In this document: one piece after another, positions 23,389-56,887 of the stretch
How the letters are laid out: the number at the start of each line of letters is the position of its first letter
How positions within the stretch are numbered: position 1 is the stretch's first letter
IMG/VR virus record: IMGVR_UViG_3300011189_000401
Location: 1 to 56,887 of that record
Strand: one strand, 5' to 3'
Length of the DNA stretch: 56,887 nt
Source: a virus
Translations under genes and position numbers: made by a program
The notes under the pieces: generated by a model
What the model saw: only the letters and a program-made list of their open reading frames with translations
Databases searched by the model: none
What the model was told of the DNA's origin: nothing

Positions 23389-24870
23389 CTATTTCAAAAG
23401 ATCATCTACATCGACATACTCTAACTCGTGCTCTTCAGCCTTGTACGTTCTGATCCGGCGTCGAGCGTGTTTCGCGAACCACGGATGCCCGTTGTCCTGA
23501 AAGTCGACGAATGTGACCGTTTCTTCACGGTCAGTGTTGACCTCGCCGTTGGCCATCTTCTCTTTGCGCAGGATGCGACCAATCTCCTGTTTGGTCTGGA
23601 TACCGGACTTACCGGCACCAGCCTTGATTCCCAGGTCGCAATGAAAGTTCAGCCCCTCGGAGAGCACGGTTCCAAACAGGATAGGCAGGTCGCCCTGCTT
23701 GAACGCCTCGATGTCCTCGTCTCGTGAGTATGAACTTCCATGAGCGAAGGCCATCCCGTCCTTCGGAATGCCGAAGTCGGTGGCCATCATATCCATGAGC
23801 CGTTCACCATGCTCGATCCGTGTGACAAACCCGATGGTCTGACCGTTGTCCTTGAACTCCGACAGCGTCAACTCACAGATAGCCCGGTTGCGGAACTCAT
23901 CGCCCACAATGATCCGGTCGTACTCTTTGTTGTAGGTCAGTGGGTTGGAGTCGAAATACACGTCGTTGCGCACCACTTTGATGAGAGGCCGTGCAAGCCA
24001 CCCAGCGTCGATGAGCCACTTCGTTGATATCTCATGAATGGTAGGGCCTAGGTAGCCCTCCAGAAGTCCGTCTCGGTTACCCTCAGTGCCGTCTGAGCGC
24101 TTGATAGTAGAGGTCTCCGGTGTACCAGAGAACCCGTGGCGTAGCGAAGCGTTCTTGCAGGACTTCGAAATTGAGCGCCATGTGTTCGACTGGAGGTGGT
24201 GAACCTCATCAAAGATAAGGTACTCGACGCTCTCCAGATACTTCTTGATGCGCGCCCGCTTCTTCTTGCCTTTTGACGATGTCAGCGTTTTGTCGATGGC
24301 GACGGTGAACTGCTCGGGTTGCCATAACCCATCACCGATGAACCCCACGGGCTCATCCATGTACTCTTCCAGTTCGCCCCGTAGCTGCTGAGCGAGATCC
24401 TTGGAGTTGATTACGACGAGGGTCTTCTTGCGCCACGTCTTGACCAGCGCAGCCATGATGACTGTCTTACCGGCACCAGTAGCGAGGTCGAAGATACCTC
24501 GTGTCTTCTTGTAACCCCTGACCAATGACTCAAGCTGGTAGTCCCTGAGCTTCAGCGGGTTGCCGCCGATCTCCATGTCATCGAGGTGAAGCTTGGCGAC
24601 ACCCATGTCTGGCATCTTGCGAATGCGCCTCTTGTCCTCGATTTTGTACTCAACGCCAGCACGCTTCATCAGCGTGACGACGCGAGGCAGGAACCCGGTG
24701 AGAAAGCTGCCTTTCTTGGTGACGAAGTATTTGTACTTCGGCATCCTTGGATTGTGCTTGCGCGCCCAGAAGTCATTCTCTTGGCGCAGGTACCTACGAA
24801 GGATCTTGATAAGTTTTGTCGTAACCCCGTTTAGCTGCGACCTGTAGTCGTTAACCTCGATTAAAACCAT
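23389..24870 (-). CDS. UvsW-like superfamily 2 DNA helicase
   Basis: A 493-residue helicase with motif I LATGAGKTV (near residue 131), motif Ia VVINSKDLAQQ, motif II IFDEVHH (near 221), motif III GFSGTPE (near 248) and motif VI QEIGRILRKE. In T4, UvsW remodels branched DNA, removes R-loops and shifts replication from origin to recombination mode; a similar job is inferred from the shared neighbours. It is the first gene of the DNA-metabolism block. Its SD (AGGGG) lies inside the 3' arm of a 14-bp inverted repeat, so translation may depend on where the mRNA starts. Confidence 0.85.
   Translation of the reverse strand: MVLIEVNDYRSQLNGVTTKLIKILRRYLRQENDFWARKHNPRMPKYKYFVTKKGSFLTGFLPRVVTLMKRAGVEYKIEDKRRIRKMPDMGVAKLHLDDMEIGGNPLKLRDYQLESLVRGYKKTRGIFDLATGAGKTVIMAALVKTWRKKTLVVINSKDLAQQLRGELEEYMDEPVGFIGDGLWQPEQFTVAIDKTLTSSKGKKKRARIKKYLESVEYLIFDEVHHLQSNTWRSISKSCKNASLRHGFSGTPETSTIKRSDGTEGNRDGLLEGYLGPTIHEISTKWLIDAGWLARPLIKVVRNDVYFDSNPLTYNKEYDRIIVGDEFRNRAICELTLSEFKDNGQTIGFVTRIEHGERLMDMMATDFGIPKDGMAFAHGSSYSRDEDIEAFKQGDLPILFGTVLSEGLNFHCDLGIKAGAGKSGIQTKQEIGRILRKEKMANGEVNTDREETVTFVDFQDNGHPWFAKHARRRIRTYKAEEHELEYVDVDDLLK
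24851..24864. promoter_or_regulatory. Palindromic site, one mismatch (L-I-E-V-N register)
   Basis: Reads TTAACC-TC-GATTAA. It covers codons 3-7 of the UvsW-like gene, just downstream of the promoter/hairpin region. Confidence 0.6.
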
Positions 24871-24933
24871 TTTAGCCCCTAGGTCCAGTGTCCTTTTATT
24901 CCGTCAATAAAAGAATTGAACCTAGGGGCTAAA
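24871..24933 (-). promoter_or_regulatory. Nested hairpin that would mask the helicase SD
   Basis: Perfect 14-bp arms lie at 24871-24884 and 24920-24933. An inner perfect 8-bp stem lies at 24893-24900 and 24906-24913. The arm nearest the gene contains the SD (AGGGG) and ends next to the ATG at 24870. In a transcript that reads through from the tail genes both arms would be present and the SD paired. A transcript begun at the element at 24914-24941 would lack the 5' arm. Confidence 0.7.
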
Positions 24934-24941
24934 CTTTCCGC
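24914..24941 (-). promoter_or_regulatory. Promoter-like element GCGGAAA-N16-CAATT
   Basis: GCGGAAA (24941-24935), 16 bases, then CAATT (24918-24914). It lies at the boundary between tail genes and DNA-metabolism genes. The start site would be expected near 24905-24910, inside the inner hairpin. The 5' arm of the inverted repeat lies in the spacer and would not be transcribed from here. Confidence 0.65.
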
Positions 24942-24966
24942 TCAGGGCCGAATTTTCTAAATTAGT

Positions 24967-27900
24967 TTAGGACGGCTCGAAGAAGGTGCTGCAATCGTCT
25001 GACTTGGAGGGAACGATATCGCGTGTGTAATCCTGAACATCTGCGAAAATGTTCGGGAAGCGCACAACCTCTAGCTCCATCTTGTGCCACCCTTCTTTGA
25101 TCGACTTGATCATCACCGGTTCCTCTACGATGTCATACGGCGGGTATGTCATCGGCACGAACTGACCGGGGTAAAACGAGATCCCCTTGTCATAACGAGC
25201 CTCACACTTATACGAGATCTTACGAGATGAGTTGACCCGAGCCAGCCGAGTTACCACGTCCCGCGCCACATTTGGCTGGTGGACGAAGTCGGCCTGAACA
25301 CTGAGTTCACTGGCTTGCCCCTTCGCCTTGTCGGCTCTTCGGCAATACTCGTTGTTCGAGGCATTCAGAAGGATTTCACCTTCGAAGGTGTCTGTGATTC
25401 GGTTCTTACGGTATTCGTAGACCACCCGGTTGTACAGGCTTTGATACCCCTGATCGCCCTCACTAATCTTGTTTCCAAGGTTCAAGTTGTAACACAGCGG
25501 GTTGTTCCAGTCCGGCACCTGCTTGATATCCAGGACTCCGAACTGGAGCTTCCCGTCTCGCATGTACCAGAAGAACCCGAACTGGTGACAGATCTCTTCG
25601 ATGAGCTTCGAGCTATTCCAAGGCTGCGTCATGAAGACCGACGCCTCGTAGTGAGGGGTCTGCGCCTTGACCTTCTTGATGTTTGCTCGATCGATCAGTC
25701 GCTCACCAAATGGATACTCTCCATAAGTCGAGATATGATAATCCAGAATATCGAGCGGGTGAACTAGGACGCCGCCGCGCTCGATATACCTGCCTGCCTC
25801 GTCTACCTGTCCGGCAAATGAGGCGTAGAGGACAGATGAGCCCACACCGTTTCTGATAGCGAACCGTCTGTCAAGAGAGCCTAGCTTCCAGTTCCATTCG
25901 CCACCCCTCAGCTTGACGGCTTGAAGCCGCTGGCCGTCACGCGTCTCAGCGGTAGTCACCTTGTGATAGGGGTCGTAAAGCTTGCCTACATACTCAACAG
26001 ACCGGTGGGTCTCCCTCGTATATGGGTCTACAACCTCCCTGTGTTCCTCATAGTGGTTATCCAAGACCTTGGGGAAGGGTGAGTGTACCACATGCTTCTG
26101 TATGCCCCTCAGCTCCCTCTCAGACGGCCCCTCGTTTTCCTTCTTCCCTACCACGATGTCAATATCGGCTGCGCTCTCTACAGCACACTTGTTGGCAGCA
26201 TAGATATACAGGTCGTCACCAGCTGACAGGCTGTTGTTGAGCATCACCTTCTTGCTCACGGCCTGCATCATGGGGACGTTGTATTGGTGGCCGTACGCCA
26301 GTGGGAAATACGAACCGAGGTCAGCCCCGTTCTCGGGGACCGGCTTTCGAACTACCCTGAAATGACGGGCATGGAAATACTTCTCAGCCGTTTCCTCGTT
26401 CTCAAGGTCTGTACCCAACTCATCAATGTCCTTCTCAGTGAGGTCTCCGCGCTTGAACCTGAGCGTATTTACGAAGTCATCCTCGTCCGGCTTGTAGGAC
26501 TCGGTGTAGCTGTACGGATTCTCAGCCGGATCTCCGTTCTCGTCGAGTGCAACGTCTGGCTTCTTCAAGGCTTCATACCGGCTCCCGTATTCAGTGGGCA
26601 CCGAGAAGTAACACCTCTCGAACCAGTTGCCGGAGGTGTCCCGTCTCAACTCGGAGCTAATACAGACGCCAAACTTCCCTGAAGCCTGTCCCAGAAGAGC
26701 CCCGTTGAACTCCTTGTAGTTCACGTTCTCAGGGTCGTTGTACCCCGTTTTGACAACCGTCCCCTCTCTAACAAGACTGGAGAGCGGTCTCATCATGTCG
26801 AATCGCAGCCCTCGCAGCCTGTCTACAAACAGTTCTGCAATGTCATCACCGTTGCCATCTGGCACGAAGAGGTCATCGCCACCGGTCGTGTTGTCAACAT
26901 GGAAGTCGATGTGTCCAACTATGTACTCAGACGATAAGAACTTGAGCGGGTCGTGAGCCTGAAGCTGGCCGTACAGATCTCTAACCGTTGCCCGGTGAGA
27001 CAGCGCGTACTCATGCTTGTCTGACTCAGGAAGTGAATGGTTGTGGATCTCTAGCGCTGCAAACCCCGTTTGATCCATTGTCGCCGCAGCCCCGATGTCC
27101 TCAATCATCTTGAACCTGTAGATCTCCCGGATCTCACTGGTCACCGTCTGGGTATCAGACGTCGGGTCATCGTTATCGAACTCAAGGGTGTAGGTCTGGC
27201 CTGCGTCGATAAAGCCTGTAGACAACTCGGAGTCAGCTTCAGGGTCAAATGGATAGAACCCATTCAGTCTGATGTAGACCCTGTCATAGTTGTCAGTCAG
27301 TGCCCCGTTTGGAACAGGTCTTACGTGACAACCGCTTTCAACCAGTTGTCTGATCTCGGAGAGATAGCCGAGAATAGGGGCCGTATTTGGAAGTTCTAGC
27401 GCAAGCTTGTCGTCGTCATCGCCTCCATCCGGTGAGCCAATGGCCTCGTATGGAATGACACGGTAGTTCCCTTGGTGGGGTTGACCTAGGATAACTTCAC
27501 CGGGGCCTTCAGGGAACAGCTTCTTTTTCTCTCCTTTCATTTCACCGTAGTCACCTACATTGGGATCAAACGTCCACTCAATGAAGTAGTTGCCAACTCT
27601 CTCAGATCCAACGACTCTATCTCTAGGCATATTCAAGATGAGCATGTGGTCACCAAAGCCGTTATTGGCGAGCCTTTTAGCAGTAGTTCTCTTGAAGGTA
27701 GTAGCCCGCTCGTACTCCCCACCGCCTCTGATGACTTCGATCTTGTAGTGGTCACCGGGTTGCCACTCGTTGTTGTAGCCACCTTGAAGCGGCTCGTGAT
27801 AAATCGTCCACGGATCTTCGGGGGACTGGCTACCCAGCTTGGCCCAACTGCCATCATCAATGTTTGTAATGATGGTATTCGGTGCGTCGGTCTGCCAAGC

Positions 27901-28641
27901 GTGCTTAGTCTCAGCGTTCCCCTCCGGGAACGACGTCGTGGGGTCATCATCGGGGTATTCGATGTACGCCAAGAAGTATTCCAGCGGCAAGATAGCATTG
28001 GCCTCTGTCTTGTCACCCTCAACATCCCAATTCTTGAATCTGTCGTTGTAATAGTCTCCGCTACCGTCTTGCCAGTCGGCGACCTCGAACTCAGCTATTG
28101 ACGCTCCACCGTATACAACCGGATTCATCCGGCCACTTGCTACGGTCCAAGGGGAGTCATCATAAGGCGTAAAGTCGAGACCTACGTCGACCTCACGGGG
28201 TGCCATGATCTGAAAATACTGGAATGAACGAGGGGTGAACTTCGACATATAGCCGTCAGCCTTTGCATCCTCGTACATACGCACGGTAAAGCTGAGCACT
28301 CCTTCGCCAAAGTCTACGTCGGTCATGTAGCCCCGGAAGTCGCCTAGCACTTCCTTCCTGTCCTTGACGAAAAAGACTGTGACCTCGGCGGATTCATAGT
28401 CGACGTCACGAAACTCCTTCATGAAGTCGCGTACTCCATCCCAGACACCCACGTTGAGCGTCGGGACCGGGGAACCAGACTCGAAGCCTACCTCCATCTT
28501 AGCTGGCTCAAACTGTGTGACCAGTGGAAGGTAGTTCCCCTCGTAAGACTCGCCCCCGATCGTTTCCTCAATCGTCAACCTGTGAGTGGCGAACCTGTAA
28601 AGCTCGCCGTTCACCTTAATTCTGATTGCGTAATCCTTCAT
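24967..28641 (-). CDS. Tail tip / baseplate hub-like protein
   Basis: A 1224-residue protein. The N-terminal 130 residues are beta-rich (MKDYAIRIKVNGELYRFAT...). The C-terminal part (about 1000-1200) includes NSSKLIEEICHQFGFFWYMR followed by DGKLQFGVLD and YNRVVYEYRKN, the pattern seen in siphophage tail-tip attachment and hub proteins. It is the last gene of the tail block and probably sits at the distal tip, contacting the host envelope. The SD is TGGAGAAG. A weak palindromic-site relative lies at 27481. Assignment rests on order and on this C-terminal pattern. Confidence 0.65.
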   Translation of the reverse strand: MKDYAIRIKVNGELYRFATHRLTIEETIGGESYEGNYLPLVTQFEPAKMEVGFESGSPVPTLNVGVWDGVRDFMKEFRDVDYESAEVTVFFVKDRKEVLGDFRGYMTDVDFGEGVLSFTVRMYEDAKADGYMSKFTPRSFQYFQIMAPREVDVGLDFTPYDDSPWTVASGRMNPVVYGGASIAEFEVADWQDGSGDYYNDRFKNWDVEGDKTEANAILPLEYFLAYIEYPDDDPTTSFPEGNAETKHAWQTDAPNTIITNIDDGSWAKLGSQSPEDPWTIYHEPLQGGYNNEWQPGDHYKIEVIRGGGEYERATTFKRTTAKRLANNGFGDHMLILNMPRDRVVGSERVGNYFIEWTFDPNVGDYGEMKGEKKKLFPEGPGEVILGQPHQGNYRVIPYEAIGSPDGGDDDDKLALELPNTAPILGYLSEIRQLVESGCHVRPVPNGALTDNYDRVYIRLNGFYPFDPEADSELSTGFIDAGQTYTLEFDNDDPTSDTQTVTSEIREIYRFKMIEDIGAAATMDQTGFAALEIHNHSLPESDKHEYALSHRATVRDLYGQLQAHDPLKFLSSEYIVGHIDFHVDNTTGGDDLFVPDGNGDDIAELFVDRLRGLRFDMMRPLSSLVREGTVVKTGYNDPENVNYKEFNGALLGQASGKFGVCISSELRRDTSGNWFERCYFSVPTEYGSRYEALKKPDVALDENGDPAENPYSYTESYKPDEDDFVNTLRFKRGDLTEKDIDELGTDLENEETAEKYFHARHFRVVRKPVPENGADLGSYFPLAYGHQYNVPMMQAVSKKVMLNNSLSAGDDLYIYAANKCAVESAADIDIVVGKKENEGPSERELRGIQKHVVHSPFPKVLDNHYEEHREVVDPYTRETHRSVEYVGKLYDPYHKVTTAETRDGQRLQAVKLRGGEWNWKLGSLDRRFAIRNGVGSSVLYASFAGQVDEAGRYIERGGVLVHPLDILDYHISTYGEYPFGERLIDRANIKKVKAQTPHYEASVFMTQPWNSSKLIEEICHQFGFFWYMRDGKLQFGVLDIKQVPDWNNPLCYNLNLGNKISEGDQGYQSLYNRVVYEYRKNRITDTFEGEILLNASNNEYCRRADKAKGQASELSVQADFVHQPNVARDVVTRLARVNSSRKISYKCEARYDKGISFYPGQFVPMTYPPYDIVEEPVMIKSIKEGWHKMELEVVRFPNIFADVQDYTRDIVPSKSDDCSTFFEPS
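27481..27494. promoter_or_regulatory. Degenerate palindromic site (two mismatches)
   Basis: Reads TTGACC-TA-GGATAA. The codons are ATC CTA GGT CAA (VILGQP). It keeps the stop-avoiding change of the N-L-G-Q register plus one more, so it may be a weak or decaying copy. Confidence 0.35.
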
Positions 28642-28665: not shown

Positions 28666-31600
28666 GCCTGGGTCACCTTCACAATACGCCCTGCAAGTTG
28701 ACCAAAGGCGAGGTACATATCCCCATCTGGGTCCACCTCGATTGCGTTTACTTGCTCGAACCCTCCAAATGAGTCTACACCGAAGGCGCCGTCTGAGTTC
28801 CAGACCGTTGAACCATCTGCCTTAGAGAGTCGGGCGAAAACAACAGAGTCCGATCCACCACCTGCCACCAAATCATAAGTGCCCACATACACGTCACCGT
28901 GCTTGTCTACCGCCAGCTTAGATGGAACCATGCTCACAGTGAATGGGTCAACAGACCAGTTAGGAGTCCCGGAGGCTGAATACGTGTAGGACTTAGTGGT
29001 GTCAAAGGAAGTAATCACGCCTGTATCGTCGCCCACATATACGGCGTGCGCCGCTCTGTCTACCACGATGGTGGTGATGGTGCCACTGACTGTCCCGAGT
29101 AGAGTAGTGGCACCTGTTTCACGATCTACTTCCCATACTCTATCCATACCGTCTGCGAAGAACACCTCTCCTGTCTCAGACACAGTGATGCAGTACGCGG
29201 AGAAGCCACTGTCTACGTCGATTGGCCACTGACCCGTTGTAATCTCTTCCAGCCAGCTGCCATCACTTGTCGGCTCGAACTTCCTGATAACGGTATCGTC
29301 TATTACGAACAGTTCCTCATCTCCGAGTGTGCTTCCACGCTGGGGGAGCCCATTCTTGTTCCAGACAGCAAACTGTCCTTCACCGAGGCCATAGTTTGCA
29401 ACGGGGACCGCAAAGTGTCCTTCTCCGCTGGCGTCACTGGCTCCAATCGTTCCGTCTTCATCCAGGTAGTAAACAAGAGCTTCAGGTGACAGATCTTGAC
29501 CGGAATTATCGGGGTCTACAGTCACAGAATCAAGCTCCAGAATAGGCCACCCCGAGTTATCGTATCCCCAGAATTCACCCGTCGTTACCACCGTGCCATC
29601 GAGGTCCATCCTCTTGACGCTCTCGCCGTCTGTAAAGGCCAAGAACAGCGTTTCAACTCCATTTTCCTCGCGACTAGTAAGAGTCATTCCTTTGATCGGA
29701 TCGTTGATGTCGAGCAACACCGTCTGCGTAATGGTTGCGCTGGGGAACCCAGCAGGTTCAGAAACAGTGATGGTGGCCGTCTCCGTGCGGCCAACCCTGT
29801 CCACAAAGTCAATCTCGTACTCTCCGTTGTAGCGAGGCGTGAGGATGAACGCAACCTCCCCGGTGATCATACTCTTGGTGAAAATCCACTCCGGGTTGTA
29901 CTCTCCATCTGCGTCATAACCTCTGACATCGAAGTGGTTGTACTCTCCGGTATCAGCGGTGATAGGCATGGAGTTGTCATACGTCACCGTACCCCCTTGT
30001 GCGTCCACACCCGTCACCGTTACTTTCACCTCGTTCAGTGTGTTGACCAGCGATGGGTAAGAAAGCGTGTAGCCCACGATTCCACTCTCTTCGACAAACA
30101 CCGTCATGCTTCTGATATCTGTGTACCCAGCGGTATTAGTCGCCTTGCACTGGACGGTGTAAGTCCCTAAGTCGTTGTACGTATGAGAGATGGCATCGTT
30201 CGTCGATGAACCACTCTGGGTACCCTCTCCGAAGTCCCACTCGTATGAGAGCGTGTCGCCCTGTGGATCGGTAGCGATGACTGAAAAGGTCAACTGTGTT
30301 CCGGGGAGGATCGTCGTTTTGTCAACCGAGATACTTTCAATTACTGGAGTCTTAGCCTTCTTGGTAGGGCTCTTGCCTACAGTCCAATCATGATCAATCA
30401 AGGGGACTTCGATCTCCTTGTAGATCCCATCTGGATCTGAAGAGAAGCCTCCTTCGACCGAGACGTAACGCGTCTCGATACCATCTGTGTGAGCGATGAC
30501 CAAGGGGAATGGCTTCTCTAGCTCGAACATCGAGTTTACCGAGTAAAACAGACGACCGTACTCTTCTGACTCCGGTGGCAGATTGTCAGCCGTCAGCGTG
30601 ATATGAGTGGCCACGCTGCCCTGATACGAAAGCTCAGGCATCAAAAATCCAAAGTCTGATTCCACGAGACCAAAGTTGCTGAACATCTCAGACTCAGATT
30701 CCACGATACAATCAGACCAGTCAATCCAACGGCCAAACACAGCCTCTCCAATCGAACGCCTTGCGGCAGACCCCGGACTCTTGAAGCGGATACCCATGTG
30801 CGTGTGCGCCGATGTGGTCATTCTTTCAGGTACATCAAACGAGGCTGCACTAGCCATCAGGTAAATCTTGTAACCGGAGGGAACCGAAGGAGAGCGATCG
30901 AGCACAATCACTGAATCGAAGCTCTCCTTGATGAGATACTGAGCGTCCCAAGTATTTGTGTCCGGGTTGTGAACCAGTATGCTGTAGCCCTTCAGGGCTC
31001 CTTCTTCAAAGGACTCTTCGATTGTCATACCTGTCCCTTGTGTGAAGCCGGTATGAGTCAACTCCACAGAAGGGAACGTGTATGAGGACACATCGGTGTT
31101 AGACCAACTGGTACCATCGTAGTTGCCGGTGATTAGGTCGAAACCGTAACAGCCCGTCAGGTTGATCATGCTGAGGCAATCGAAGAACTCCATGTTGGAA
31201 TTCTCGAAGACAATCTCTTCGTACCCCTTGTTGGTGTCGAAACGATCTGTGAAGTCGAAGATGGAGTTAGCCATCCCGTTCACAATATTGCCGATGTAGT
31301 TGACACCCCTTGTCGGGCCGTACACAAACTCGTCACCGTCTACCGAAGGAGATCCTCCCCCGCTGAACAAGACCGTGCTACCGTCTGCTAGCTCCACGGT
31401 GTCGCTGTACACCTCCATCCAGTCTACGTCGTCGAAAGCAGATACGTGACCTCGGGTGGTTCCTTCGATATCACCATCTGGTTGCCTGAGCCTCGTCGAT
31501 GTGAACACCGGTTCGTACAGCGGCTCGGTACTGATTTGGATGTCCCCGATGCCAACCTCGACGCCGCCATACCCGTTGCTATCCATGAAGCCGAAAGAGA

Positions 31601-34010
31601 TCTCACCGTTGCCAATCGGAAAGTCACCTGTGTCAGTAAGTTCCTGGGAACTCGGGGTCCATGTGTCAGATCCTAGCTCTCGCCACCACATCATCAACCG
31701 GTCTTCGTTAAGAGACACCATACTTCGACCGTAGTGTAATAAAACCTGATACCCCTTGGTCTCGTCTTGCTCACTGAACACAGTTCCCAGCTTGGTAGTA
31801 CCAGCCGAGTCATAGACCTCTAGCGTGCCCCCATAGGTCATCCTGAGCGTGTAGTCACCTATCTCAGCGATCTTGATGTCACCTGAAGATGGTGCGCTAC
31901 TAAAGTCGCGAAGCTTGAAATTGAATTTGATCTTGTAATGGCCGTAGATACTGCTACTTGAGCGATCCCACGCCGAGAGTAGCCCGGAGCTTCCAGACAT
32001 GGTACCATAGACGTAGTCACCAGAAGACGGTGCCTTGCACCAGTTGAACAGTTCTCCGTCAGCGTCCTCTTCCCACACAGTGTAGGAATTCGCATTCTTG
32101 TTCTGCTCAAAGCCCCACGATGTATGAGGAAGGATGAACCGAGAGGTGTTGAACTGATAGGGCTTAACCTCGGTTAAATTAGCGACAGGCGCTGAAACAG
32201 CGTACCCCTTCAGGGAGGACTTCCTCAGATATTCCTCCCTCTTCGCGGTGAATAAGTTCTGTCCCCTGTAACCGCACGCCGTAAGGTCGTGGAGCACAAG
32301 GTCAATGAAGCCGGTATTCTCCTGAACTCCTTTGGTCTGCATGCCTGAAATAGACCTGTTGACCGGGCTGGAGCAAAAGAGGTAGCGTTCGTGAAACTTC
32401 CCTCCAAACCCGACTGGAAGGACGTCGCTGCTCCCGCCTTTGATGAGGTTGTAATCCACAAAGGTGAACTCGCTGTGGACCATTAGTACGTCTTGCCGGT
32501 TAGGCGGCTCATTACCACCCCTTCCGCACCTCAGAAGCATGAGAAGGCTATTCTTTGTCCTACCGGGGATAACGGATACATCCTCGACCTTGAATTGATC
32601 ATTCGGCATCGAGGGCATACCGTTTCTGGCCCCACCGGATGTCCTGCCGGGCTTGATCTCCCATGAGACACATGGCTCCCAATTCAGGAAGTCACCGTCG
32701 AGGGTCTTCAGGCCCATCAGATAATTTGCACTATCGAGGTTTGTCCTAGTGGAATACGTGTCGGGGTCGCCTCCTTTTAGGATGACGAAGCTACCCATTT
32801 GTTCATCGAAGTACAGATCGAAATTGACACTGAATACGCCGTGATCTCTTTCGGCCTGAGTCATATACTCAGTAGGAGTGAAGTAAGAGAACAGACCGAC
32901 GTAACGATCGGACTCCGCGTATGAATAGTCACTACCGATTCTTGAGAACTGAGCGTAATGACTCTGATTGGTCTCCAGCGACAGGCCACGATCGTATGAC
33001 ACAAACGTTCTCATGTCTCGCAGCTGAGTCTTATCTGAATCGTCCCACTTCGTTCCGTAATAGACCAAGCACAGGGTGTCTGCACCAGCGGCTACTCTAA
33101 GTCTGAAGCCGTGATCCCCATAGGAGCCAATTGGATGGAGTTCGTTTGAGATGGAGTCGCTATCCGGCCTGTCGTAATCCACCCCGAAAGACCCGGTGAC
33201 CTCTTGAGACGAGTTCACCCACTCCACCATGTCAGGATCTGAGGTCTTCCATGTCGCGATGTAGTTCTTATCGTCTACACCCTCTTCGTCGATCCTCTCG
33301 ACGTAGCGGTATGCTACAATCAGTTCATCTCCTAGGGTACACATGTCTGGTGACCCGTGCTGCAACGTAGAGTCGCTGGCCGTCGTCACGCTCACGTCAT
33401 CAATAGGGATGTCGTTGAACTTCCTGACCAAGTCGAACAAATCTGTCTGCTCGTTGTGCCGATATAGACGAACGTGCTGCTTGGACGAATCCCTTGGGTC
33501 TACCATCTCACCCAAGAATAACAACTCTCCTTTGTGCGAGTGAAGCCGGGGGTTATCGATCGATGCCATCACAGACCCGTCGTCATCCCCGGACAGTTTC
33601 AGGCGTCTGTAGTCAACAACTCCTTTGTTACTCTGACCAAGAGTGCCGCCTTCAGACCTCTTCCCAAAGGAATACTTCAGGTCGAAGGGGTCACTGAAAC
33701 TTGACGGCATGACTCCCGACAGGTCGTCTTCCTCGATGTCACTAAGGTCGTCGAAACGGAACCCACTTTGGACAAACGAGCGTGGCTTGACTCGGCGTCG
33801 ATGATCCCCCGCGATGGGGAGCCAGTCATTCTTGCCCTTGAACGTCATATATGTAGGCACCACTCGGCTCAACTCGGACCCCGGAACCACGACGGTGGCG
33901 TCATAGGGGGTACTCGAATCCAGGGGTTGCAACTCGTACTCACCATCGTAAAACTCTTCTTTGTTTACGATGTCGGTTTCAATTGGGTGATTGATGGATA
34001 GTCTTTTCAT
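28662..34010 (-). CDS. Giant tail protein with LamG-like, PKD and propeller-like parts
   Basis: A 1782-residue, almost all-beta protein. Approximate layout: an N-terminal region with repeated sialidase/propeller-like strands; a concanavalin/LamG-like segment at 650-840 (YKIKFNFKLRDFSSA...); a clear PKD domain at 1220-1300 (ISVDKTTILPGTQLTFSV, YEWDFGEG, ISHTYNDLGTYTVQC); and a C-terminal NHL/PQQ-propeller-like section (1480-1782) with repeats such as AVYVGDDTG and DVYVGTYD. Such mixtures bind carbohydrate or protein at the host surface, so a receptor-binding or tail-fibre role is likely. Its ATG overlaps the stop of the preceding 1611-aa gene. Confidence 0.7.
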   Translation of the reverse strand: MKRLSINHPIETDIVNKEEFYDGEYELQPLDSSTPYDATVVVPGSELSRVVPTYMTFKGKNDWLPIAGDHRRRVKPRSFVQSGFRFDDLSDIEEDDLSGVMPSSFSDPFDLKYSFGKRSEGGTLGQSNKGVVDYRRLKLSGDDDGSVMASIDNPRLHSHKGELLFLGEMVDPRDSSKQHVRLYRHNEQTDLFDLVRKFNDIPIDDVSVTTASDSTLQHGSPDMCTLGDELIVAYRYVERIDEEGVDDKNYIATWKTSDPDMVEWVNSSQEVTGSFGVDYDRPDSDSISNELHPIGSYGDHGFRLRVAAGADTLCLVYYGTKWDDSDKTQLRDMRTFVSYDRGLSLETNQSHYAQFSRIGSDYSYAESDRYVGLFSYFTPTEYMTQAERDHGVFSVNFDLYFDEQMGSFVILKGGDPDTYSTRTNLDSANYLMGLKTLDGDFLNWEPCVSWEIKPGRTSGGARNGMPSMPNDQFKVEDVSVIPGRTKNSLLMLLRCGRGGNEPPNRQDVLMVHSEFTFVDYNLIKGGSSDVLPVGFGGKFHERYLFCSSPVNRSISGMQTKGVQENTGFIDLVLHDLTACGYRGQNLFTAKREEYLRKSSLKGYAVSAPVANLTEVKPYQFNTSRFILPHTSWGFEQNKNANSYTVWEEDADGELFNWCKAPSSGDYVYGTMSGSSGLLSAWDRSSSSIYGHYKIKFNFKLRDFSSAPSSGDIKIAEIGDYTLRMTYGGTLEVYDSAGTTKLGTVFSEQDETKGYQVLLHYGRSMVSLNEDRLMMWWRELGSDTWTPSSQELTDTGDFPIGNGEISFGFMDSNGYGGVEVGIGDIQISTEPLYEPVFTSTRLRQPDGDIEGTTRGHVSAFDDVDWMEVYSDTVELADGSTVLFSGGGSPSVDGDEFVYGPTRGVNYIGNIVNGMANSIFDFTDRFDTNKGYEEIVFENSNMEFFDCLSMINLTGCYGFDLITGNYDGTSWSNTDVSSYTFPSVELTHTGFTQGTGMTIEESFEEGALKGYSILVHNPDTNTWDAQYLIKESFDSVIVLDRSPSVPSGYKIYLMASAASFDVPERMTTSAHTHMGIRFKSPGSAARRSIGEAVFGRWIDWSDCIVESESEMFSNFGLVESDFGFLMPELSYQGSVATHITLTADNLPPESEEYGRLFYSVNSMFELEKPFPLVIAHTDGIETRYVSVEGGFSSDPDGIYKEIEVPLIDHDWTVGKSPTKKAKTPVIESISVDKTTILPGTQLTFSVIATDPQGDTLSYEWDFGEGTQSGSSTNDAISHTYNDLGTYTVQCKATNTAGYTDIRSMTVFVEESGIVGYTLSYPSLVNTLNEVKVTVTGVDAQGGTVTYDNSMPITADTGEYNHFDVRGYDADGEYNPEWIFTKSMITGEVAFILTPRYNGEYEIDFVDRVGRTETATITVSEPAGFPSATITQTVLLDINDPIKGMTLTSREENGVETLFLAFTDGESVKRMDLDGTVVTTGEFWGYDNSGWPILELDSVTVDPDNSGQDLSPEALVYYLDEDGTIGASDASGEGHFAVPVANYGLGEGQFAVWNKNGLPQRGSTLGDEELFVIDDTVIRKFEPTSDGSWLEEITTGQWPIDVDSGFSAYCITVSETGEVFFADGMDRVWEVDRETGATTLLGTVSGTITTIVVDRAAHAVYVGDDTGVITSFDTTKSYTYSASGTPNWSVDPFTVSMVPSKLAVDKHGDVYVGTYDLVAGGGSDSVVFARLSKADGSTVWNSDGAFGVDSFGGFEQVNAIEVDPDGDMYLAFGQLAGRIVKVTQA
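32164..32177. promoter_or_regulatory. Palindromic site TTAACC-TC-GGTTAA (perfect, L-T-E-V-K)
   Basis: Inside the 1782-aa tail gene. The codons TTA ACC GAG GTT AAG keep both arms intact without a stop. Confidence 0.8.
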
Positions 34011-38851: not shown

Positions 38852-38865
38852 TTAACCCAGGTTAA
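38852..38865. promoter_or_regulatory. Palindromic site TTAACC-CA-GGTTAA (perfect)
   Basis: Intergenic, directly after the hairpin at 38866-38889 and 9 bp before the start codon region of the 1611-aa tail gene. Confidence 0.85.
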
Positions 38866-38889
38866 CCCCGCTGGCCGAAACCAGCGGGG
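38866..38889 (-). terminator. Hairpin after the tape measure gene (possible terminator)
   Basis: Perfect 9-bp GC-rich arms CCCCGCTGG and CCAGCGGGG enclose a 6-base loop, starting 14 bases after the tape measure stop. No U-run follows on the minus strand; the palindromic site comes next. It may therefore be an inefficient terminator, a processing or stability hairpin, or act together with a protein on the site. Confidence 0.55.
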
Positions 38890-38902
38890 CTACCCATCGT
38901 CA

Positions 38903-50128: not shown

Positions 50129-50167
50129 CAATGGCCCCATCTCCAGTGAAAGGAAATGGGGCCATTG
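50129..50167 (-). terminator. 12-bp hairpin between the chaperone genes
   Basis: Perfect 12-bp arms at 50129-50140 and 50156-50167 (core ATGGCCCCAT / ATGGGGCCAT) with a 15-base loop. They lie in the 75-bp gap just before the SD of the 302-aa gene. There is no U-run, so partial termination, RNA processing or tuning of the ratio of the two chaperones are all possible. Confidence 0.5.
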
Positions 50168-50185: not shown

Positions 50186-50596
50186 TTACTCCGCGTCTTC
50201 GTCCTCGACATCTTCTTCATCTGCGTCTTCTTCTTCGTCCTCGTCCGCACCAGCCGAGCCGAACTTCTCCATCAACTCGTCTTGAATCTCGTCCGGCAGG
50301 TAGTCGAAGCTCTCTTCCGGGTCTTTCGGGTTGAAATCGACCGGGGCACCAGTGGCGTCCACGATCCCCTGCCAACCGGCAAGCTGTTCGAGCACGAGGT
50401 TCAGCGACACCTGATTGCTCTTGAACTTGTTGACGCGACCTTTTTTGTTGAGGCCGACCATTCCATCTCGAATCTTCGCTTTGTCGCGTGCCCGCAGCTT
50501 CACAAGCTGGAACTCGGCGCGGTTCGGATCGTCCGCGTCCTCGGATTCTGGAACGTATGCAACCGGGGTGTTGGGTTTCTGAATCTGAATAGCCAT
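50186..50596 (-). CDS. Tail assembly chaperone-like protein (136 aa, acidic tail)
   Basis: Starts at ATG 50596 (MAIQIQKPNTPVAYV), with AGGAG 8 bases upstream. The core RNAEFQLVKLRARDKAKIRD..., NQVSLNLVLEQLAGWQGI resembles phage tail assembly chaperones, and the last 25 residues are almost all Asp/Glu, as in lambda gpG-like proteins. It precedes the 302-aa gene and the tape measure gene. The reading frame stays open for about 100 further codons upstream of this ATG, with a hydrophobic translation (see the note on 50597-50896). Confidence 0.7.
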   Translation of the reverse strand: MAIQIQKPNTPVAYVPESEDADDPNRAEFQLVKLRARDKAKIRDGMVGLNKKGRVNKFKSNQVSLNLVLEQLAGWQGIVDATGAPVDFNPKDPEESFDYLPDEIQDELMEKFGSAGADEDEEEDADEEDVEDEDAE

Positions 50597-50938: not shown

Positions 50939-50966
50939 AATTGCATAAGTAGGCAAAACTTTCCGC
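50939..50966 (-). promoter_or_regulatory. Promoter-like element GCGGAAA-N16-CAATT
   Basis: GCGGAAA (50966-50960), 16 bases, then CAATT (50943-50939). It directly follows a strong terminator and a perfect palindromic site, so it would begin a new transcript for the chaperone and tape measure genes. Downstream GTGAAGGGAA is shared with the 18972 copy. Confidence 0.65.
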
Positions 50967-50977
50967 TCAGACCCAAA

Positions 50978-50991
50978 TTAACCGAGGTTAA
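50978..50991. promoter_or_regulatory. Palindromic site TTAACC-GA-GGTTAA (perfect)
   Basis: Intergenic, placed between the U-run of the terminator at 50995-51026 and the promoter-like element at 50939-50966. Confidence 0.85.
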
Positions 50992-50994
50992 GGC

Positions 50995-51026
50995 AAAAAA
51001 CCCCGCAGGGGTTACCCTGCGGGGTT
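50995..51026 (-). terminator. Strong rho-independent terminator
   Basis: Perfect 12-bp arms (AACCCCGCAGGG at 50999-51010, CCCTGCGGGGTT at 51015-51026) with a 4-base loop. On the minus strand a run of six T follows. It lies 22 bases after the stop of the major tail protein gene, as is common after a highly expressed structural gene. Confidence 0.9.
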
Positions 51027-56763: not shown

Positions 56764-56887
56764 TTACTCGTCTTCAGCCTTTTCGTCCTTCTTGTCCTTC
56801 TTGTCCTTCTTGTCCTTCTTGTCCTTCTTGTCCTTCTTGTCCTTCTTGGACTTCTTTGGCTTCTTCTTTGACTTCTTGGAGTCACCC
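56764..56887 (-). CDS. C-terminal end of a lysine-rich protein with KKD repeats (partial)
   Basis: The gene enters from the right edge and stops at 56764. The visible 41 codons read GDSKKSKKKPKKSKKD followed by a tandem K-K-D repeat and an end DEKAEDE. Such a highly basic, probably disordered tail could bind DNA or the capsid interior, but the main domain is outside the window. The coding DNA is a near-perfect 9-bp tandem repeat. Confidence 0.75.
   Translation of the reverse strand, partial: GDSKKSKKKPKKSKKDKKDKKDKKDKKDKKDKKDEKAEDE
56785..56847. repeat. Seven tandem copies of a 9-bp unit
   Basis: GTCCTTCTT is repeated seven times without interruption. It encodes K-K-D per unit on the minus strand and could change copy number by slippage while keeping the frame. 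Confidence 0.9.

Follow-up and report, generated by a model that had tools for sequence, protein, structure and literature searches.

A candidate promoter nested in a ribosome-site-masking hairpin between the tail and replication genes of an uncultured phage

In bacteriophage T4, the e and soc genes have a late promoter inside a stem that masks the Shine-Dalgarno (SD) sequence, and translation from read-through RNA is strongly repressed, about 100-fold in the case of lysozyme (PMC3014915, PMC2988022). In T4 I-TevI and segB and in Aeh1 mobE, a very stable hairpin hides the ribosome-binding site (RBS) on read-through RNA, and a late promoter frees it (PMC2988022). In T4, expression of uvsW is driven by a late promoter (PMC3016281). 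The leader described here, which precedes a UvsW-like helicase gene, resembles those of e and soc in that the SD lies in a stem that only the longer, upstream-started RNA can form, and in that a promoter, here a candidate, lies over the region encoding the 5′ arm, so that RNA started downstream lacks this arm. However, e and soc use TATAAATA late promoters, whereas the candidate promoter here is of another type. Moreover, e and soc are late genes blocked on early RNA, whereas here tail genes lie upstream and a replication cluster downstream, in a phage that is not T4-like. With I-TevI, segB, and mobE, our locus shares a very stable hairpin predicted to hide the RBS on read-through RNA, but those are homing endonuclease genes that invaded early operons, whereas here a core-type helicase heads the operon. 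In IS10 and IS50, RNA started outside the element is the only kind in which the terminal inverted repeat folds, and it then hides the transposase SD, while RNA from the inner promoter escapes. These repeats are transposon ends; the present one is located at a phage operon junction, with no transposase. T4 uvsW belongs to the same broad helicase family, and its time of expression is controlled in T4, but this control is described at the promoter, and an SD-masking hairpin is not mentioned in that description (PMC3016281).

The window, that is, the whole stretch of DNA that was analyzed, is an IMG/VR virus fragment of 56,887 bases from an uncultured phage. Almost all of its genes are on the minus strand. 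In the order of transcription, terminase, head, lysis, and tail genes are followed by the UvsW-like helicase, then by a DnaC-like loader, a DnaB-like helicase, a methyltransferase, a primase, and polymerase III alpha, and finally by a UvsX-like recombinase, SbcCD, and ribonucleotide reductase. Contig L003, which is 99.4% identical and is extended by L093, adds structural genes located further upstream, terminase and head genes among them. The helicase (23389–24870, minus strand), the first gene of the replication cluster, matches PHROG 16 (E = 2e-68) and PHROG 9690 and contains the SF2 helicase domains ResIII and Helicase_C of Pfam. Its best matches are among phage UvsW-type helicases, with about 30% identity to SPO1-type and Bacillus phage helicases, and several distant relatives align from residue 1 of the ATG start (24868–24870). 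The gene directly upstream, on the same strand, encodes a tail protein (24967–28641), and the hairpin lies in the 96-nt gap between the end of this last tail gene at 24967 and the helicase start at 24870. The gene following the helicase has its own SD, TAGGAGA, which overlaps the helicase stop; putative translational coupling of the genes downstream of the helicase is plausible. The parts searched contained no recognizable gene for a sigma factor or RNA polymerase. Tandem CAAGAAGGA repeats, a lysine-rich coding repeat, are found at the very end of the window (56785–56848).

A preliminary description of this leader reported a perfect 14-bp inverted repeat (24871–24884 and 24920–24933) enclosing an inner 8-bp stem, with an SD, AGGGG, in the 3′ arm next to the ATG. 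All three elements are present, and the pairing is more extensive than described. In the minus-strand RNA, the outer stem pairs 24933–24917 with 24887–24871, giving 17 pairs that comprise 14 perfect ones, one G-U, and two more. The 5′ arm (24917–24933) includes the 14-base perfect core at 24920–24933, and its first 7 nt (24933–24927) are also the end of a repeated promoter-like motif; the 3′ arm (24871–24887) directly abuts the start codon. The inner stem and loop (24891–24915) contain the 8-base repeat and form 10 pairs in RNA, 24915–24906 with 24900–24891, one of them G-U, around a 5-nt loop (24905–24901). The two stems, of 17 and 10 pairs, are stacked around a small internal loop. The computed fold of the leader RNA has a z-score of −4.0, and none of 200 shuffles was equally stable. 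No other perfect inverted repeat in the window has arms of at least 14 and a gap of at most 60, and among 100 Markov shuffles only 2 contained any such repeat. Two pairs are G-U in the coding-strand (minus-strand) RNA, and this RNA is for that reason the more stable of the two (−37.7 kcal/mol, vs −32.1 kcal/mol for the plus strand), as expected for an RNA element. The leader has no Rfam match. A reading of the hairpin as an intrinsic terminator was rejected: AUGGUUUUAAUC comes after the stem, there is no U run, and a terminator scan of the minus strand finds none between the tail gene and the helicase.

The strand asymmetry also bears on whether the inverted repeat acts as DNA, namely, as an operator whose two repressor half-sites flank the transcription start. 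The arms do flank the predicted start, and the same phage carries another dispersed palindromic site, TTAACCNNGGTTAA. However, such an operator would have arms 17 long with centers about 46–49 bp apart, and it does not account for G-U pairs occurring on the coding strand only, with the coding-strand RNA being the more stable. The arms match TTAACCNNGGTTAA at a few bases only, and the arm sequence has no further copy in the genome. A looping DNA operator was accordingly judged unlikely, and we give it very little probability.

The dispersed site itself is a 14-bp palindrome with 27 copies in the window at up to 2 mismatches, compared with a mean of 0.94 in shuffles. Examples are at 244, 623, 12000, 18308, 22984, 24851, and 28652, and further ones at 32164, 34692, 38852, 46137, 48432, 50978, and 55189. 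The copies are mostly 1.5–4 kb apart; some are within genes and others in gaps, where they often overlap a TAA stop, and one copy with a single mismatch is found just inside the helicase start. In-gene copies in which the reading frame would run into TAA instead read TCAA or are otherwise altered, as if the site were kept as DNA. The palindrome is reminiscent of the 17-bp dyads described in Corndog-type mycobacteriophages, whose function is not known (PMC4351075). Sister phages (L151, L152, L103, and L104; 59% terminase identity) are without TTAACCNNGGTTAA and carry a diverged form, TTGAACCNNGGTTCAA, with 10 matches (at most 2 mismatches) across four pieces, of which two seem to be near-duplicates (shuffles, 0–0.05 per piece). 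The palindromic site and its presumed binding protein thus seem to have changed together.

The SD of the helicase (24880–24876) is located 5 nt from the ATG (24870–24868) and lies wholly inside the 3′ arm. In RNA starting at 24933 or further upstream, its computed unpaired probability is 0.000, and opening the SD-AUG region costs 15.6–18.5 kcal/mol, vs 3.5–4.1 kcal/mol in RNA starting at 24917–24892. When 31 gene starts of the window were scored with 90 nt of upstream sequence, the helicase start was the most occluded (19.5); the second most occluded start reached 14.1, and the middle value was near 4.5. Many other gene starts of the phage have stronger, exposed AGGAG-type SDs. It had been suggested in the preliminary description that read-through RNA hides the SD and that RNA started further in frees it, and the predicted folds agree with this (about 18–19 vs about 4 kcal/mol). 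Masking in read-through RNA and release in RNA begun inside the hairpin are strongly supported by the modeling, the release holding only if the start lies within 24917–24892.

A promoter had been placed over the 5′ arm and loop. A consensus scan detected no sigma-70-type promoter on the minus strand in the leader, and a weight-matrix scan gave weak candidates only, with a score of 4.4 at the originally proposed site vs 8.5–11.5 for the best of the window. The T4 late promoter TATAAATA was also rejected, as its nearest match in the leader, AATAAAAG (5/8, in the inner stem), is poor. What speaks for a promoter at this position is a repeated 28-nt block and a bipartite match in a sister phage. 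The block, AATTCGGCCCTGAGCGGAAAGTTTAGCC (24927–24954, minus strand), is a candidate upstream promoter element and ends in GGAAAGTTTAGCC (24939–24927). It is followed by a candidate −10-like element, TTTTATTG (24912–24905), which agrees at 6 of 8 positions with TTGTATAG, the corresponding element of a second copy. This second copy, AATTTGGGTCTGAGCGGAAAGTTTTGCC (50952–50979, minus strand, then TTGTATAG at 50939–50932), comes just after an intrinsic terminator (50994–51026, minus strand) with a AACCCCGCAGGG / CCCTGCGGGGTT stem followed by T's. In the window, as in the near-identical contig, the block is confined to these two places, both of them intergenic, and around CTGAGCGGAAAGTTT it scores 20, whereas none of 200 shuffles of the intergenic set exceeded 15. 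Because exact 15-mers are repeated several times across the window, by chance or in coding repeats, the weight of the block rests on both copies being intergenic.

A composite of the two elements, GGAA..TTT.GCC-N-TT.TAT.G, likewise matches the window at these two places only. The helicase copy reads GGAAAGTTTAGCC-N14-TTTTATTG, with a weaker −10-like half than the second copy, GGAAAGTTTTGCC-N12-TTGTATAGGTGAAGGG. In a sister phage (59% terminase identity), the composite matches, among the pieces read, only upstream of the orthologue of gene 50186–50596, where the gap contains GGAACATTTTGCC-N11-TTGTATAGTTGAAGGG; this match came from a looser bipartite form, chosen partly post hoc. The spacing between the elements is thus 14 nt in the helicase copy, 12 in the second copy, and 11 in the sister. 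The block with up to 3 mismatches was not found in the sisters. The contigs of L103 and L104 cover structural genes and contain no helicase, so the comparison is limited to the other promoter copy. A bipartite match at an orthologous position is what one would expect to see of a conserved promoter. From these sequence comparisons, a phage-type promoter that is not sigma-70-like and is nested in the hairpin appears likely. Because its elements overlap the 5′ arm and the inner stem, the RNA is expected to start near 24900, past the 5′ arm. This is close to the 24905–24910 predicted in the preliminary description, although the two estimates rest on different evidence.

Nothing pairs with the second copy, which thus forms no hairpin, and this candidate promoter therefore exists without one. 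At the helicase, the pairing reaches into 10 nt of promoter spacer that differ in the second copy. Therefore, the stem is no by-product of motif conservation, which argues for selection on the pairing itself.

The absence of a detectable sigma-70 promoter, the weak −10-like half, and the differing spacing are also compatible with SD masking that involves no nested promoter. Helicase synthesis would then be low, or regulated by a protein or by temperature, on every transcript, and the block would be a binding site; a helicase SD that is both weak and buried fits this as well. Against such a reading, the bipartite block is also located behind an intrinsic terminator at 51.0 kb and has been preserved at the orthologous site of the sister, as would be the case for a promoter, and we consider this alternative unlikely.

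The leader is present in a single relative, the 99.4% identical contig, where it differs by one base: one C of 24876–24879 is deleted, which leaves the weaker SD AGGG and one bulged base. This deletion could be natural or an assembly error. In this one relative, the hairpin is retained despite the 1-nt deletion in the SD arm, and opening costs 11.8 vs 4.5 for the short RNA. Searches for close relatives with the helicase, polymerase, tail protein, and terminase returned only contigs of about 99% identity, one of which has the leader. The contigs recovered included none with a helicase identity between about 31% and 99%, and scans of helicase C-terminal alignments and of genome contigs revealed no kin with this leader. 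Among about 55 leaders of distant helicases (L010–L088), none has comparable or shared masking; the one with the highest masking value, L024, was rejected as a terminator with a miscalled start. Masking is therefore not ancestral to UvsW-like genes. Elsewhere, the differences from the 99.4% identical contig cluster at 25437–25474, 27368–27407, and 29265–29725, parts of two tail genes, which suggests local hot spots of diversity.

Strong hairpins are also present in intergenic regions between tail genes, at 50129–50167 and 38863–38890, with a 12-bp perfect stem (CAATGGCCCCAT) and CCCCGCTGG/CCAGCGGGG, respectively. Neither has a U run; in a sister, the site that corresponds to 50129–50167 carries a hairpin resembling a terminator. 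Since these two hairpins mask no SD, intergenic hairpins in this phage may have other roles.

The helicase hairpin could be a processing site for RNase III or a similar enzyme, or an mRNA-stability element, in read-through RNA. Cleavage within the stem would split the tail mRNA from the replication mRNA, and the overlap with the SD would be incidental or relieved by cutting. For a phage processing site, the two stacked stems (17 and 10 pairs) would have sufficient length to serve such an enzyme, and the existence of hairpins between tail genes that do not mask an SD points in the same direction. However, processing accounts neither for a 3′ arm that contains the SD and runs precisely up to the ATG nor for a 5′ arm that begins in the repeated promoter-like block. 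We assign this possibility a low probability.

We propose that the promoter nested in the ribosome-site-masking hairpin acts as a translational insulator between the tail and replication operons. We estimate the probability of this mechanism at roughly 0.55, on the basis of the computation (the stem, the burial of the SD, the energy difference, and the repeated motif), two promoter-like copies, and one orthologous copy. If, as we infer, transcription reads through from the tail genes, the resulting RNA would carry both arms, fold, and bury the helicase SD, and the helicase would be translated from it barely or not at all. Such untranslated RNA may be prone to Rho polarity, possibly shutting off downstream genes too. 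The phage-type promoter, if active, would start RNA near 24900; without the 5′ arm, the stem could not form, and the SD would be usable.

The preliminary description interpreted the leader as a timing switch like those of e and soc. The logic of SD masking and release does correspond to these T4 genes, but the T4 late promoter is missing, and a role in timing is not supported, as the candidate promoter type also precedes tail genes. Insulation from tail read-through is the safer reading because it accommodates the observations and makes no assumption about which operon is expressed first. Were the helicase operon early, the arrangement would run in the opposite direction to that in T4. It is a more doubtful, tentative suggestion that a late-to-early insulator evolved independently outside the T4 lineage, blocking replication proteins from structural-gene read-through, the reverse of T4, by means of a new non-sigma-70 phage promoter class (GGAA..TTTWGCC - TTKTATWG).

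The novelty is modest: the logic is already known, and what is new is the setting, ahead of replication genes in a phage that is not T4-like. For a phage group of which no cultured member was found here, the finding would provide a promoter motif as well as a leader that lends itself to testing. If the proposal is true, the nested-promoter RBS hairpin would be a general, independently evolved solution for phages with all genes on one strand, in which one operon may run into the next without making its proteins.
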